IMG/VR virus record: IMGVR_UViG_3300030294_000039
Span: 1-58,385 of that record
DNA from: a virus
DNA length: 58,385 nucleotides
Strand: one strand, 5' to 3'
Shown here in pieces: positions 13,432 to 33,606 of this stretch (within the stretch, counting starts at the first letter, position 1; every line of letters starts with the position of its first letter). The notes under the pieces were generated by a model that had not been told where the DNA came from, did not search any database, and saw only the letters and a program-made list of their open reading frames with translations. Position numbers and translations under genes: made by a program.

Positions 13432-14295
13432 ATGCGACAAAACAACAATAACATTCCCTTCATGGTGCACCAAGTACTTGACAAAGATACAATAAGAATT
13501 GAAATACTGCCTCATTTATCGGTAGCAAAAAGAGGTTTTAAGACCACAAGTTGTCTGATTGAAGTAGTAAATAGCATTTTATATAAGCTGAAAACAGGCT
13601 GTCAATGGTATCTGTTGCCAGTAAGAAGTTTGTTCTCAGATGTAGTCTTAAGCCATAAAACCATTTTTGGTCATTTTCGCAAATGGTGTAAGAGTGGTGA
13701 GTGGGAATACTGTTGGACGAAAATACTGGAAAAATACAAGTCGTTCTTGGATTTATCTAGTGCCGACTTGGATGGTAGTCATGCCACAGCACTTCGCGGA
13801 GGCGAAGAAGTGGCTTATCAGGGTAGGAAGAAAAGGAAAACGACAAATTCTTTGTTTCTTTCTGACCGACAGGGTTTACCTTTAGCTTTATCAAATCCAA
13901 TTGCAGGTAACCATAATGATTTATATGCAATTGAGAAATCCTCAGAAGAACTATTTTCAACTTTAGGGGAGGCAAAGATTAGTACAGATGGTCTTTTTAT
14001 TAATGCTGATTCTGGTTTTGATTCAAAAAACTTTCGATCGATTTGTGAAAAATGGGGAGTAATTCCCAATGTTGCTTTCAACTATCGCAATGGTGAAAAC
14101 AAAGATGAGTATTTATTAGATGATTTACTTTACAAACAAAGATACGTCATTGAAAGAACAAATGCTTGGATGGACAGTTTCAGATCGCTGCTTAATAGAT
14201 TTGATTATACGGTTTCAAGCTGGAAAAGCTTCAATTACATAGCTTTTATGATTATATTATTCAAGAAAATTAAAACTAACAAAAAGTCAAGATGA
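13432..14295 (+). CDS. IS5-family transposase
   Basis: The 287-residue protein has an N-terminal helix-turn-helix region (about residues 20-90: CQWYLLPV, TIFGHFRKW) and a DDE catalytic core. Asp is in DLDGSHA (around 112), Asp in NADSGFD (around 193), and Glu in YVIERTNAWMD (around 239). It catalyses cut-and-paste transposition of the surrounding 926-bp element. The stop lies inside the right inverted repeat, as is common in compact IS elements. Length and motifs suggest it is intact. Confidence 0.93.
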   Translation: MRQNNNNIPFMVHQVLDKDTIRIEILPHLSVAKRGFKTTSCLIEVVNSILYKLKTGCQWYLLPVRSLFSDVVLSHKTIFGHFRKWCKSGEWEYCWTKILEKYKSFLDLSSADLDGSHATALRGGEEVAYQGRKKRKTTNSLFLSDRQGLPLALSNPIAGNHNDLYAIEKSSEELFSTLGEAKISTDGLFINADSGFDSKNFRSICEKWGVIPNVAFNYRNGENKDEYLLDDLLYKQRYVIERTNAWMDSFRSLLNRFDYTVSSWKSFNYIAFMIILFKKIKTNKKSR

Positions 14296-15798: not shown

Positions 15799-16230
15799 TT
15801 ATATGTTAAATTTTTTTGAAGAAAGATATATTTCTATACCACCAGATTTATAAATATCATTTAATAAATCTGATATTTCTTCAACATCTCCTTTATAGCC
15901 AGGTATTTCATCTTCATCCATATTATTTATAGGAAATTTTCCAATGTATAAATAATCTAATGAATATATTTCACTTATTCTATAGTTTTTGTTAAATATT
16001 CTAACTATAGCATAAGCGCCTTGAGATAAATCAAATCCTCTGATATTTATTATTTCTACTATATTATCATTATCTAATAAAGATACAACTTCTTCTATTT
16101 TATTTTGTAAATCTTTAATTAAACTAGCTTCATCACTATCATCATCAGGATTGTTTTTGACATAATTCCAATCAATATCTTTACTCCATTCACCAGTTTC
16201 ATAGATTTTATATGATTTTATGTGTTTCAT
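15799..16230 (-). CDS. Tag-A family protein (paralogue pair, member 2)
   Basis: N-terminus MKHIKSYKIYETG and C-terminus SSKKFNI. It aligns along its length with the 15357 product, sharing NPDDDSDEASLI, DLSQGAYAIVRIF, FPINNMDED and GGIEIY. It is first in a reverse chain running to 12461, preceded by a TATATATAA element. Confidence 0.72.
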   Translation of the reverse strand: MKHIKSYKIYETGEWSKDIDWNYVKNNPDDDSDEASLIKDLQNKIEEVVSLLDNDNIVEIINIRGFDLSQGAYAIVRIFNKNYRISEIYSLDYLYIGKFPINNMDEDEIPGYKGDVEEISDLLNDIYKSGGIEIYLSSKKFNI

Positions 16231-16244
16231 TAAAATATTTTTTA

Positions 16245-16260
16245 TTTATATATAAAAAAA
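16245..16260 (-). promoter_or_regulatory. Possible phage promoter element (TATATATAA class)
   Basis: On the reverse strand this reads TTTTTTTATATATAAA, about 15 bases upstream of the first gene of the reverse tag-A chain. Similar elements precede several late-type operons here. In AT-rich DNA the match could be chance. Confidence 0.3.
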
Positions 16261-16261
16261 C

Positions 16262-16292
16262 TTGCACAATAAAAAAATTTATATTATCTTTG
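16262..16292 (+). promoter_or_regulatory. Bacteroidota-type promoter upstream of the tRNA region
   Basis: TTG at 16262-16264 and TATCTTTG at 16285-16292 are 20 bases apart, a full -7 match. It could drive the 16412 gene and, by readthrough, the leader and tRNAs. Confidence 0.6.
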
Positions 16293-16360
16293 TATTGGTT
16301 TTTAATGTCTATTACTTGTTGTGAAACAAATGACGTTTAATTTTAATTTCATAATTAAAA

Positions 16361-16394
16361 AAACTCTCACTGATGAAAATTCAGTGAGAGTTTT
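16361..16394. terminator. Hairpin terminator or sRNA 3' end
   Basis: The 13-bp stem AAACTCTCACTGA / TCAGTGAGAGTTT is about 70 bases after the 16262-16292 promoter. The forward T-run is short, and the reverse strand has seven Ts. A short untranslated RNA of about 95 bases ending here is possible. Confidence 0.55.
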
Positions 16395-16411
16395 GAAAAA
16401 TTAAAAATATA

Positions 16412-16615
16412 ATGAAAGAGTTGATAGATGATAGTTTAGTTCCAGGTAGAGGATATTATTATTTACTAGATTGGAATGAATCTGATAGATGGGAAACAAT
16501 GTTCAGACTATTCGAAAAAACCAGACTGTGTGATTTAGAATTACATGAATACATACAGTTGCTTGAAATTGCAACAAAAAAAGATTTAGAAGCATTAAAA
16601 ATAGAAAAAACTTAA
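16412..16615 (+). CDS. Small hypothetical protein, 67 aa
   Basis: A helical, acidic 67-residue protein (GRGYYYLLDWNESDRWETM, then LHEYIQLLEIATKKDLEALK). No domain recognised. It lies between the early promoter and the Gln leader, so it may share their transcript. Confidence 0.6.
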   Translation: MKELIDDSLVPGRGYYYLLDWNESDRWETMFRLFEKTRLCDLELHEYIQLLEIATKKDLEALKIEKT

Positions 16616-16661
16616 TAAAATTATATTACTATATACATTACAATAAAAAATTAAAATTCTT

Positions 16662-16715
16662 ATGAATAACAATATCTCAAATATGATTCAGCAACAACAA
16701 CAAACTTACGTTTGA
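16662..16715 (+). CDS. Gln-rich leader peptide of the tRNA operon
   Basis: The 17-residue reading frame MNNNISNMIQQQQQTYV contains five consecutive Gln codons (CAG then four CAA, 16689-16703). Its TGA (16713-16715) overlaps the first stem of a set of alternative hairpins. The tRNA genes that follow all carry anticodons for CAA or CAG. This is the design of an attenuation leader: ribosome position reports the supply of charged Gln-tRNA. Coding is inferred from arrangement, not from homology. Confidence 0.6.
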   Translation: MNNNISNMIQQQQQTYV

Positions 16716-16799
16716 TTGGGTTAGCATCATGTTTGTTTTTCACCCAATCCTGAAATGGTTTGGGTTTTTTTGTGCCCAACTTTTTAAGTTGGGTTTTTT
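16714..16799 (+). promoter_or_regulatory. Candidate Gln-responsive transcription attenuator
   Basis: Five segments alternate in complementarity. 1 is GATTGGGT (16714-16721), 2 is ACCCAATCC (16742-16750), 3 is GGTTTGGGT (16757-16765), 4 is CCCAACTT (16775-16782) and 5 is AAGTTGGG (16786-16793). Pairing 2:3 (8 of 9) is followed by seven Ts, and 4:5 (8 of 8) by six Ts, so both are terminators. Pairing 1:2 (8 bp) with 3:4 (5 bp) would remove both. A ribosome stalled on the Gln codons leaves segment 1 free (readthrough). One that reaches the stop codon covers segment 1 (termination). This is inference from pairing. Confidence 0.6.
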
Positions 16800-16808
16800 G
16801 TTAAATAC

Positions 16809-16879
16809 TGCTCTATGTTGTAATGATAGCAATCAGGAATTTGGATCCTGCAGATTAGGTTTGAGTCCTAATAGAGCAA
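16809..16879 (+). tRNA. tRNA-Gln (anticodon UUG)
   Basis: Cloverleaf: acceptor TGCTCTA / TAGAGCA (7 bp), anticodon stem CAGGA / TCCTG with loop ATTTGGA (anticodon TTG), T-arm TTAGG-TTTGAGT-CCTAA, discriminator A. The weak U1-A72 pair is a known glutamine identity feature. CCA is only partly encoded (CA follows). Confidence 0.85.
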
Positions 16880-16893
16880 CAACACAATGTCAC

Positions 16894-16978
16894 TGCCTTG
16901 TGATGGAATTGGTTAAACATGTCAGTCTTTGAAACTGATGCTCATATGAGCTTGTGGGTTCGAATCCCACTAAGGCGA
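16894..16978 (+). tRNA. Class II tRNA with Leu-like body and UUG anticodon
   Basis: Acceptor TGCCTTG / TAAGGCG (U1-G72 and G7-U66 wobbles), D-arm with GAATTGG as in Leu tRNAs, anticodon stem TCAGT / ACTGA, a long variable arm (TGCTCATATGAGCTT) and T-arm GTGGG-TTCGAAT-CCCAC, discriminator A. The seven-base loop CTTTGAA puts TTG at 34-36 (16929-16931), which reads CAA (Gln). A normal Leu tRNA would have TAG, CAG, CAA or TAA there. One base change (A35 to T) from Leu-UAG would produce it. Charging identity cannot be decided from sequence. Confidence 0.75.
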
Positions 16979-16988
16979 CAAATTATAT

Positions 16989-17061
16989 TGTTCATTAGCG
17001 CAATTGGTAGAGCGTCAGATTCTGGATCTGAAGGTTGAAAGTCCGAATCTTTCATGAATAA
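16989..17061 (+). tRNA. tRNA-Gln (anticodon CUG)
   Basis: Acceptor TGTTCAT / ATGAATA, D-arm GCGC..AATTGGTAGA..GCG, anticodon stem TCAGA / TCTGA with loop TTCTGGA (CTG), T-arm GAAAG-TCCGAAT-CTTTC, discriminator A. The T-loop starts TCC where TTC is usual, so function may be slightly impaired. Confidence 0.82.
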
Positions 17062-17070
17062 CAAATACAT

Positions 17071-17142
17071 TCTCATATTGTATAACGGCTATTACATTTG
17101 TTTTTGGAACAAATAATCTAGGTTCAACTCCTAGTGTGAGAA
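17071..17142 (+). tRNA. tRNA-Gln (anticodon UUG), second copy
   Basis: Acceptor TCTCATA / TGTGAGA, anticodon stem TTTGT / ACAAA with loop TTTTGGA (TTG), T-arm CTAGG-TTCAACT-CCTAG, discriminator A. It diverges strongly from the copy at 16809, so it is not a recent duplicate. A terminator follows. Confidence 0.8.
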
Positions 17143-17148
17143 CAAAAA

Positions 17149-17178
17149 ACTCTGAAATTTAAATTTCAGAGTTTTTTT
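17149..17178. terminator. Bidirectional terminator closing the tRNA operon
   Basis: A perfect 24-base palindrome (ACTCTGAAATTT / AAATTTCAGAGT) flanked by A-runs and T-runs. It ends the tRNA transcript and also the reverse-strand gene at 17159. Confidence 0.85.
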
Positions 17179-17437
17179 TATAATCATTGTACTTTTTTAA
17201 GAATTCCTCATCATTTGATTTATTAAATTTCATTTGATATTGTAATATTTGACCTAATTCTATTCCAGATAATTCACCTGAATCAAAGCCAAGTTCTTTT
17301 ATTATTTGAAATATTGTTTTGTTTTTCATATCTTCTTTACTTGTTGTTCTGAATTTGAATTCTAATTCCATTGCTAATTTTTTAATTTTTTCAGGAATAT
17401 CATATTCAAAAAATTCATAAACTTTAATATGCTTCAT
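17159..17437 (-). CDS. Tag-A N-terminus protein without C-terminal tag
   Basis: It starts MKHIKVYEFFEYD (tag-A) but ends YNDYKKNSEI, with its stop inside the shared terminator palindrome. A helical 92-residue protein. The terminator may have replaced the missing C-terminal tag. A TATATATA element lies just upstream. Confidence 0.65.
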   Translation of the reverse strand: MKHIKVYEFFEYDIPEKIKKLAMELEFKFRTTSKEDMKNKTIFQIIKELGFDSGELSGIELGQILQYQMKFNKSNDEEFLKKYNDYKKNSEI

Positions 17438-17459
17438 ATGTTATTTTTTATGATATATA

Positions 17460-17520
17460 TAAAAAAAATAAGTGCTATAATTTGTGTTTAGATCTTCACA
17501 GACATATTCACATAGCACTT
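17460..17520 (-). terminator. Terminator for the 17547-18287 gene
   Basis: On the reverse strand the stem TAAGTGCTAT / ATAGCACTTA (33-base loop) is followed by eight Ts, just downstream of the 17547-18287 gene. Confidence 0.6.
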
Positions 17521-32634: not shown

Positions 32635-33606
32635 TTATTCTTCACTATCAATATCAAAGAAATTATTAGCATCATCATCATCTCCTCCAAAAGTATCTTC
32701 GTTGTTTTTAACATTTTTTGATTCTTTTGTTGAAACATTGTCATTAGATGAGCTTTCTGCTTCTTTTTTAGCAAAAGATGTTTCATTACCAGAAATAATG
32801 TCAAGTATTTGAGATACTTTATATTTATCTTCAGCTAACCATTCTTTTGGTTGATGATCTTCAAGATCTACTGTACGTTCTTTCAAAAACGACATAACTT
32901 TTTCTTTAACTTTAGGATTTGTGATTTTATTCTTTCCTGTTTTTTCGTCAATTTCAACTGGAACCTTAGCTAATCCCTTTGGTGTCATAATTTTGATAGG
33001 AGATACTTCTAAGAAAGTACTTGAGTCATAATTAGGATATTCACCAAGTTGCTTCATAACCAATTTAAAATCCCTTCCGTTTGCGAGATCGAAAACATTG
33101 CATGGATCACCAGAAATACCATCTTTTTGATCTTTGATTTTTTCTTTGATTTTGTAACCATAAGGATAGATTAAAATCTTACCTTCTGCATCACGATTTT
33201 GTTCATCTTCAACAACTAAAATATAAGAATAATATTTAGTACTTCTACTAATTAATTCTGCTTTTTCAACTTCAGATGCGTTTTTTGAGTTCTTCAATTT
33301 CCAATACATTGTACAGATATCACATTTGTCTGTGAAATTTTTCATACAATCATAGTAACCTTGAAGTTCTGGATGATTTTTAAAATCAACATAGTGTTGA
33401 TGTTTTTCGATTGCAGATAATGATACTTTACCATCTTTTGTAAGATTAGGTAAAAACCTAATGGTTGCAACATAACCTTTCTTTTTGTCAGTAATTTTTG
33501 GACGATAAATACCATCTAAACTACCACCTTTTTTTTCTAGAAAATCTAGTGTTTCGCTTTGTGCGTCAATTGAGTCGAATAAATCGACATTTTCAAATTC
33601 TTTCAT
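32635..33606 (-). CDS. 32: Single-stranded DNA-binding protein, T4 gp32-like
   Basis: 323 residues. It has the gp32 layout: a basic N-terminus, a zinc site of His, Cys, and C-x2-C (H near residue 70-77, YYDC, KCDIC around 85-97), the core strands ending NYDSSTFLE, and a Ser-rich linker leading to a very acidic tail (GGDDDDANNFFDIDSEE). gp32 coats ssDNA during replication and recombination and contacts partners through the acidic tail. This is the best marker that the window is from a T4-superfamily-type phage. Confidence 0.85.
   Translation of the reverse strand: MKEFENVDLFDSIDAQSETLDFLEKKGGSLDGIYRPKITDKKKGYVATIRFLPNLTKDGKVSLSAIEKHQHYVDFKNHPELQGYYDCMKNFTDKCDICTMYWKLKNSKNASEVEKAELISRSTKYYSYILVVEDEQNRDAEGKILIYPYGYKIKEKIKDQKDGISGDPCNVFDLANGRDFKLVMKQLGEYPNYDSSTFLEVSPIKIMTPKGLAKVPVEIDEKTGKNKITNPKVKEKVMSFLKERTVDLEDHQPKEWLAEDKYKVSQILDIISGNETSFAKKEAESSSNDNVSTKESKNVKNNEDTFGGDDDDANNFFDIDSEE

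Follow-up and report, generated by a model that had tools for sequence, protein, structure and literature searches.

What is a 17-codon open reading frame with five glutamine codons in a row doing just upstream of four tRNA genes that all carry glutamine anticodons? The window, by which we mean the whole stretch of DNA analyzed, is an IMG/VR virus record of 58,385 bases with a GC content of 23%. Downstream of a same-strand gene that ends at 16615, it contains the following features.

16662–16715, + strand: leader open reading frame, MNNNISNMIQQQQQTYV, 17 codons, stop TGA; relatives have counterparts
16681–16689, + strand: segment 0, ATATGATTC, partner of 16724–16732 (fold; clade A comparison)
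16689–16703, + strand: sensor codons, five Gln (CAG CAA CAA CAA CAA)
16714–16721, + strand: segment 1, GATTGGGT, overlapping the stop codon; 5' half of the antiterminator
16724–16732, + strand: partner of segment 0 (fold; clade A comparison)
16742–16750, + strand: segment 2, ACCCAATCC, common to the antiterminator (1:2) and the terminator (2:3)
16757–16765, + strand: segment 3, GGTTTGGGT, 3' arm of the first terminator (hairpin −10.5 kcal/mol; stem covariation)
16765–16771, + strand: T-run of the first terminator
16775–16793, + strand: second terminator hairpin, segments 4 and 5, accessory
16794–16799, + strand: T-run of the second terminator
16809–16880, + strand: tRNA, anticodon TTG (Gln), from ARAGORN and RF00005
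16894–16979, + strand: tRNA, anticodon TTG (Gln), length 86 bases, long variable arm, from ARAGORN and RF00005
16989–17062, + strand: tRNA, anticodon CTG (Gln), from ARAGORN and RF00005
17071–17143, + strand: tRNA, anticodon TTG (Gln), from ARAGORN and RF00005

We interpret this region as a ribosome-mediated transcription attenuator placed before a Gln-only tRNA operon, one of a set of such devices in large phages, and put the probability of this reading at roughly 0.86. The anatomy, its conservation, the covariation of the terminator and the match between leader and tRNA content are read from the sequences themselves. In the proposed mechanism, the leader would be translated while the RNA is being made. 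When charged tRNA-Gln is scarce, the ribosome would wait on the Gln codons with its leading edge just short of segment 1, and segment 1 could pair with segment 2 before segment 3 is made; no terminator would form and the tRNAs would be transcribed. When charged tRNA-Gln is plentiful, a ribosome at the stop codon would cover segment 1, 2:3 would form and transcription would end. In the window's clade, the segment 0 hairpin is predicted to block 1:2 when the leader is untranslated, leading to termination in that state as well. The net effect would be that the phage makes tRNA-Gln when decoding of Gln is slow. Leader and switchable hairpins very probably constitute a shortage sensor that turns the Gln tRNAs on, with no bench data as yet; translation, stalling, termination, the read-through response, kinetic control and the physiological signal are all inferred, and host tRNA loss or decoding overload during infection is a candidate for that signal.

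The arrangement is that of a classical system. Ribosome-mediated attenuators control amino-acid operons in enteric bacteria through the trp, his, leu, thr and phe leaders. The phage locus meets three criteria for the trp type: a leader ORF with cognate codons, an intrinsic terminator between the leader and the first gene, and an exclusive alternative pairing that would be freed by a stalled ribosome and covered by one at the stop, with equilibrium favoring the terminator.

The initial annotation described a 17-residue leader with five consecutive Gln codons, followed by genes that read the codons of the leader. Both statements hold. Counting both strands of the window, the only run of at least four CAR codons is that of the leader at 16689–16703 (four runs of exactly three codons lie elsewhere), and no five-codon run appeared in 20,000 dinucleotide shuffles of 16600–16808. 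The four tRNAs, with anticodons TTG, TTG, CTG and TTG, score 49.5–58.3 bits against RF00005 (gathering score 29) and are the only Rfam matches at gathering score in the whole window. The second of them (16894–16979) combines a Gln anticodon (TTG) with a long variable arm as in Leu and Ser tRNAs, and the amino acid charged onto it is uncertain; similar long-armed tRNAs are also present in records G002, G004 and G006. By eye, ACA or a similar sequence follows all four tRNA genes (16880–17147), with no encoded CCA end.

The fold of 16650–16805 is better than that of 200 out of 200 shuffles (z = −4.4), and 16200–17500 contains five terminator-like sites versus 0.4 expected. No other part of the leader region complements the terminator 5' arm as well as segment 1, which 2 of 300 shuffles equal. 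The five segments that the annotation had proposed, pairing as 1:2 plus 3:4 or as 2:3 plus 4:5, are all present as described, but 3:4 and 4:5 are, as far as the comparison goes, accessory, and the pairing of segment 0 (16681–16689 with 16724–16732) had not been listed. The 4:5 hairpin is absent from G023 and has a mismatch at the base of its stem in G002 and G005; the clade B devices shown have a single terminator each. Segment 0 pairs in 95.6% of cells across five distinct clade A rows, compared with at most 40.0% when the alignment is slid, and its covariation in these five rows is not significant (85 of 500 shuffles).

Is the device conserved? It recurs among large phages in 16 distinct sequences, of which two come from public genomes of 635–642 kb. 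Related phages are not independent samples. In all 16, an open, Gln-rich leader frame comes first; immediately 3' of its Gln run lies a segment that can pair with the terminator 5' arm, and the terminator follows. The next ARAGORN tRNA is Gln in every case. A gp32 protein search gave 28 loci (the window encodes a gp32-like single-strand binding protein at 32635–33606). Leaving out five short contigs, 23 of these records were searched with the tRNA region, and 12 matched. G001 (330,208 bases), a longer record that is near-identical to the window, is identical to it over 511 bases. A thirteenth record, G018 (308,405 bases), has the device without a DNA match to the tRNA region. These 13 first-round records collapse to six distinct device sequences.

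More distant relatives were reached through a gp32 alignment and four public huge-phage records with 41.5–46.2% gp32 identity; the Gln device is present in LR756502.1 (642,428 bases) and LR745206.1 (634,780 bases). The LR7xxxxx records, including LR745206 and LR756502, presumably belong to the Al-Shayeb et al. 2020 study. Four of 36 further viral records, drawn from 80 later loci, also hold the device (G029, G030, G039 and G049), and a leader pattern returned six stretches, four of them new (L369 repeats G049 and L370 repeats G030). Clade B leaders usually end ACAGATTGA, with the terminator a few bases upstream of tRNA-Gln. A search of the genome contigs collection with the pattern of these leaders gave no match. 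A tblastn search of the phage collection with two leader peptides also found no match, a result too weak to mean absence because LR756502 and LR745206 hold relatives. Two variants were observed along the way. G023 has a small cysteine-rich ORF (MNKGRRNELTRLKFKKRL..., with CSCEMCSPYKYKR) between the leader and the Gln tRNAs (L041, 1617–1826). The Gln leader of G039 (L312, 529–600) runs through GATTGA, the stop site elsewhere, and ends 18 bases later; whether this is a natural variant or a sequencing error remains open.

Covariation supports the two pairings unequally. Among 12 distinct terminator stems, 99.0% of 96 cells are paired, compared with at most 57.1% when slid, and 26 cells in six of the eight pairs are changed on both sides, a count reached in 0 of 500 shuffles. 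For the antiterminator, 86.3% of 80 cells are paired over eight homologous pairs, versus at most 44.3% when slid. In the Gln devices 1:2 is kept mostly by invariance: only two pairs are changed on both sides, and 315 of 500 shuffles do equally well. Thus the compensatory changes in relatives that the annotation had suggested as a check are strong for the terminator stem and weak for 1:2, and one of its conditions for refutation, pairing segments that are not conserved in relatives, is not met.

The position of the pairing is also maintained. In 15 of the 16 sequences, the 14-base stretch most complementary to the terminator 5' arm is found at the leader stop or immediately after it, and in G039 at the homologous GATTGA. 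By hand count, the last Gln codon of the main run lies about 13–14 nt from the pairing core; in G023 the stop comes earlier, yet this distance is unchanged. The antiterminator energy is matched by no more than 5 of 300 shuffles in 14 of 16 sequences. It is weaker in L371 (27 of 300) and in G039 (28 of 300), where the leader continues past segment 1. In G029 the antiterminator pairs in another register, not the homologous one.

We modeled the switch by folding the RNA left free by a ribosome whose footprint reaches 15 nt downstream of the first nucleotide of the codon in the P site, an assumed value. A ribosome with its A site on the last Gln codon of the main run is predicted to let 1:2 form in 16 of 16 nascent RNAs (7.0–13.7 expected pairs). 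Moving the A site to the stop codon removes this pairing from every one of them (at most 1.2 expected pairs). Once the whole terminator is present, equilibrium favors 2:3 over 1:2 in 15 of 16, the exception being G006, and kinetic control must therefore be assumed: the switch would depend on 1:2 forming first and lasting long enough, an inference for which the kinetics are unmodeled. Without a ribosome, the nascent RNA has at most 0.3 pairs of 1:2 in 10 of 16 sequences and 4.0–11.8 in the other six, so that the untranslated state differs, in the model, between clades. The low value in clade A arises because 16681–16689 pairs with 16724–16732. The proposal that the region is an attenuator is thus supported by comparison, through the 16 sequences, the terminator covariation and the footprint folding in 16 of 16; translation and transcription remain inferred.

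The same folding leaves some room for a leader that is translated without acting in the trp manner. The nascent peptide, or coupling to its translation, could for example stabilize, process or release the transcript, with the hairpin as a processing site. Such a role would agree with equilibrium folding that mostly favors the terminator hairpin in all states, and a tRNA precursor needs processing anyway. It does not account for conserved T-runs directly after the hairpins, for the conserved alternative pairing, or for leader residues that follow the tRNAs instead of forming one conserved peptide. We consider it unlikely.

Could the hairpins simply terminate transcription of the upstream gene in the ordinary way, with the Gln-rich ORF a chance frame? 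A same-strand gene does end at 16615, and simple terminators of similar sequence occur in unrelated phages without tRNAs: L099, L100 and L109, which matched the terminator pattern, were rejected as devices for having neither tRNA nor leader and are ordinary terminators. Against this, leader, spacing and pairing recur in 16 distinct sequences, and the composition of the leader tracks the tRNAs. Furthermore, a loose leader-hairpin pattern run on 2.9 million viral contigs returned 42 stretches, 13 of them of this family; a Gln tRNA lies within 600 nt in 12 of the 13 (the thirteenth is cut off too early), versus 0 of the other 29, which have no tRNA of any kind within 600 nt. Ordinary terminators are therefore a very improbable explanation.

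Direct sensing of uncharged tRNA by the RNA, with the ORF incidental, has even less in its favor. T-box riboswitches bind the tRNA itself, need no leader peptide and switch genes on when the tRNA is uncharged; they would give the same logic, and the regulated products here are tRNAs. No T-box match was found in the window at the gathering threshold, nor in 16400–16820 up to E 1. Rfam leader families likewise gave nothing at gathering score, and the three sub-gathering matches in 16400–16820 are to unrelated families. The Gln codons belong to an open frame whose start and stop are conserved, and elsewhere leaders read several different amino acids, leaving hardly any reason to credit a T-box-like sensor.

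The attenuator reading extends beyond Gln. A leader-run scan upstream of tRNAs gave the first non-Gln case, a Lys leader before Lys tRNAs in LR756504, and a terminator scan before tRNA clusters gave leaders in which the amino acids of an operon are combined. The idea that the device is special to Gln was dropped after these finds; a search for runs of at least four identical residues had missed the mixed leaders. Hence the annotation's reading of the Gln device is supported but covers a single case, as the same architecture stands with other amino acids before other operons. Examples of such leaders are as follows.

MKNLTNIFWHFHFKATRRLG..., before His and Phe tRNAs
MKTTMTITISRSRSSRSLPLVV, before Ser, Arg, Ser, Ser, Arg and Ser tRNAs
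MNNILHINLLNSLCLLGIKLIG, before five Leu tRNAs
MTTMNLNMTMNLTLNVVNITL..., before Asn, Arg, Leu, Val, Ile, Thr and Met tRNAs
MKTVNTNIAIVEIAVIGGAEEG..., before Glu, Ala, Ile, Val and Gly tRNAs
MNNINNIYSIYRNCNINYNMEEICIDMINDYINDDENNVGRTG, in G001, before Glu, Asn, Asn and Met tRNAs, with Cys, Ile and Tyr tRNAs further on

LR756501 (735,411 bases) and LR756504 also contain other devices. Both had been candidates for phages with Gln tRNAs and no leader (W04 and W01, respectively) and were rejected as such: their operons are mixed, and the leaders, MNFRIINMIQEQMQQIQN... in W04 and MKTKKQQYKQYQPQYK... in W01, hold Gln together with other residues. Several leaders of G028 (288,572 bases; among L349–L355 and L364–L367) are identical to those of LR756504, which suggests, on sequence identity alone, that G028 is a close relative of this huge phage.

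Devices were listed by rule: a terminator within 300 nt of a tRNA and an ATG-initiated ORF of 8–45 codons, the longest being taken, that ends between −10 and 70 nt before the terminator. Of 263 tRNA starts preceded by at least 60 nt of free DNA, 68 have a candidate, and these comprise 61 distinct leaders. The 1:2 duplex is reached by at most 10 of 200 shuffles in 46 of 60 listed devices, or 35 of 47 without the Gln-only operons. In the other 14 of the 60, more than 10 of 200 shuffles reach the antiterminator; these include some members of good families, and some of them are probably false calls. The list retains probable false calls (G002 L122, W03 L394, L371 at 9806 and W06 L419). The Lys device of W01 is outside this list and outside the test of 43 devices described below, and is included in the count of 279 tRNAs.

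To what extent does each leader match its own operon? Leaders were shuffled among operons within the same genome, which keeps the composition bias of that genome. The true pairing ranks first, alone or in a tie, in seven of eight genomes (1 of 40,320 arrangements in LR745206), and in G018 it is among the best 2 of 24. Over 43 devices, none of 200,000 shuffles reaches the observed match, and the same is true of the 37 without Gln-only operons. In eight phages, 279 of 341 tRNAs have a listed leader upstream of them on their own strand and within the same fetched stretch, and for 268 of these the amino acid is found in the nearest upstream leader, compared with a mean of 181 and a maximum of 238 in 20,000 shuffles. 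Seven of the 11 unmatched tRNAs have anticodons that ARAGORN could not read. Coverage is poor in LR756501 (27 of 59 tRNAs), G029 (12 of 24), LR756500 (5 of 17) and a Lak phage (3 of 28), and the 450 nt before the first tRNA of the T4 cluster contain neither a T-run of five nor a matching leader. That the leaders are small functional proteins, sharing amino acids with the tRNAs through phage codon or amino-acid bias, fits the Asn, Lys and Ile that AT-rich genomes favor in both, but the within-genome shuffles preserve this bias without ever reaching the observed match, the Gln, His, Trp, Pro and Ser-Arg leaders are unlike products of AT bias, and Gln amounts to 333 codons in the 97 listed ORFs of the window, making this explanation scarcely credible.

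In 14 stretches two devices stand in series. One, L112, cannot be judged, as its second set contains the first. In all 13 informative pairs, the first leader is richer in the amino acids proper to the second block than the reverse (5/1, 5/0, 5/1, 5/1, 7/2, 4/2, 3/1, 3/1, 2/1, 3/2, 4/0, 3/1 and 3/1), with the caveat that first leaders are often longer, which favors this count. Judged by their sequences, devices in series look nested. We think it likely that, in a clade of large and huge phages, tRNA operons are arranged by amino acid under attenuators of their own, with leader peptides that name the amino acids of the tRNAs behind them and upstream leaders listing the next operon too, and that the phage would thereby read the charged-tRNA pool of the host, one amino acid at a time, and restore what is missing.

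Codon choice was compared in small numbers. Ser-Arg leaders use only CGN codons for Arg (3 of 3 in G039 and 2 of 2 in LR745206), and the Arg tRNAs have anticodons GCG/ACG and ACG, respectively. In the Asn-Leu-Thr leader of LR745206, every Arg codon is AGA (2 of 2), and the tRNAs behind it include Arg-TCT; the corresponding leader of G039 has one AGA and one CGA. No such separation is seen for Ser codons.

A prospective test used a DNA pattern built from the H-K-F-S-W leader alone, with no tRNA included. It matched 11 viral loci, of which ten have at least 455 nt downstream and the eleventh ends after 74 nt. In all ten testable loci the first tRNA is His, Phe or Lys and lies within 250 nt; of the ten, G039 and G049 had been known before, and a single leader is common to three. 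Among the H-K-F-S-W devices, covariation extends to 1:2 as well: five of seven pairs are changed on both sides over seven rows, reached in 0 of 500 shuffles. This alignment omits L427, whose DNA contains no terminator, and the devices of W04 and G029, which have a different register or weak pairing.

Like trp-type leaders, the phage devices combine a short ORF, in which cognate codons stand in a run, with hairpins that exclude one another, a terminator followed by a T-run, ribosome position as the predicted switch and, in the clade of the window, a hairpin predicted to serve the untranslated state. Unlike them, they stand before phage tRNA genes instead of biosynthetic or synthetase genes, often list several amino acids in one leader, occur in series with amino-acid lists that look nested and are found several to a genome. 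The pheST synthetase operon is likewise controlled by attenuation and also concerns genes that act on tRNA charging; it is cellular and raises the synthetase, whereas the viral device would raise the tRNA. T-boxes share the switching on of genes when tRNA is uncharged and differ in binding tRNA, where the phage device has a leader peptide.

The main answers to why phages carry tRNA genes have been codon usage and the replacement of tRNAs destroyed by host defenses. If the devices work as read, slow decoding of an amino acid leads a phage to express the tRNA for it, and the purpose of phage tRNAs becomes testable operon by operon. Transcription and translation would have to be coupled at the tRNA operons, and this would be at odds with phage transcription inside a protein shell closed to ribosomes. 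The devices would also be ready-made sensors of charged-tRNA shortage, and a leader that lists the expected amino acids may help to assign unclear tRNAs.

The class of mechanism is old; its use on phage tRNA genes, the multi-amino-acid leaders and the nested series are, we believe, new. The annotation knew of no such control of phage tRNA genes, and we also found no paper on leader-peptide attenuation of these genes in the open full-text literature (PMC), subscription papers and preprints being outside the scope of the search. Huge phages are described as carrying up to 67 tRNAs, plus synthetases (Al-Shayeb et al., 2020; PMC7162821), and in the main text of that article neither ‘attenuat’ nor ‘leader peptide’ occurs. 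PMC5331693, in the portion available, is not about attenuation of phage tRNA genes.

Other features of the window and its relatives were recorded. Recoding of amber codons to Gln, considered as a reason for the Gln tRNAs, is unsupported: TAG ends 2 of the 97 listed window ORFs, and read-through of TAG leaves four ORFs with an internal TAG and adds one ORF of at least 100 residues. CTA-anticodon tRNAs, called Pyl by ARAGORN, are present in the relatives L115, L120, L122 and L363. Two genes before the leader region, at 13432–14295, lies an IS4/5-type transposase gene (PF13340, PF13359 and PF01609). Many predicted proteins of the window start with MKHIK.., MKYLK.. or an MKHLKxxE-like sequence, a repeated N-terminal motif.
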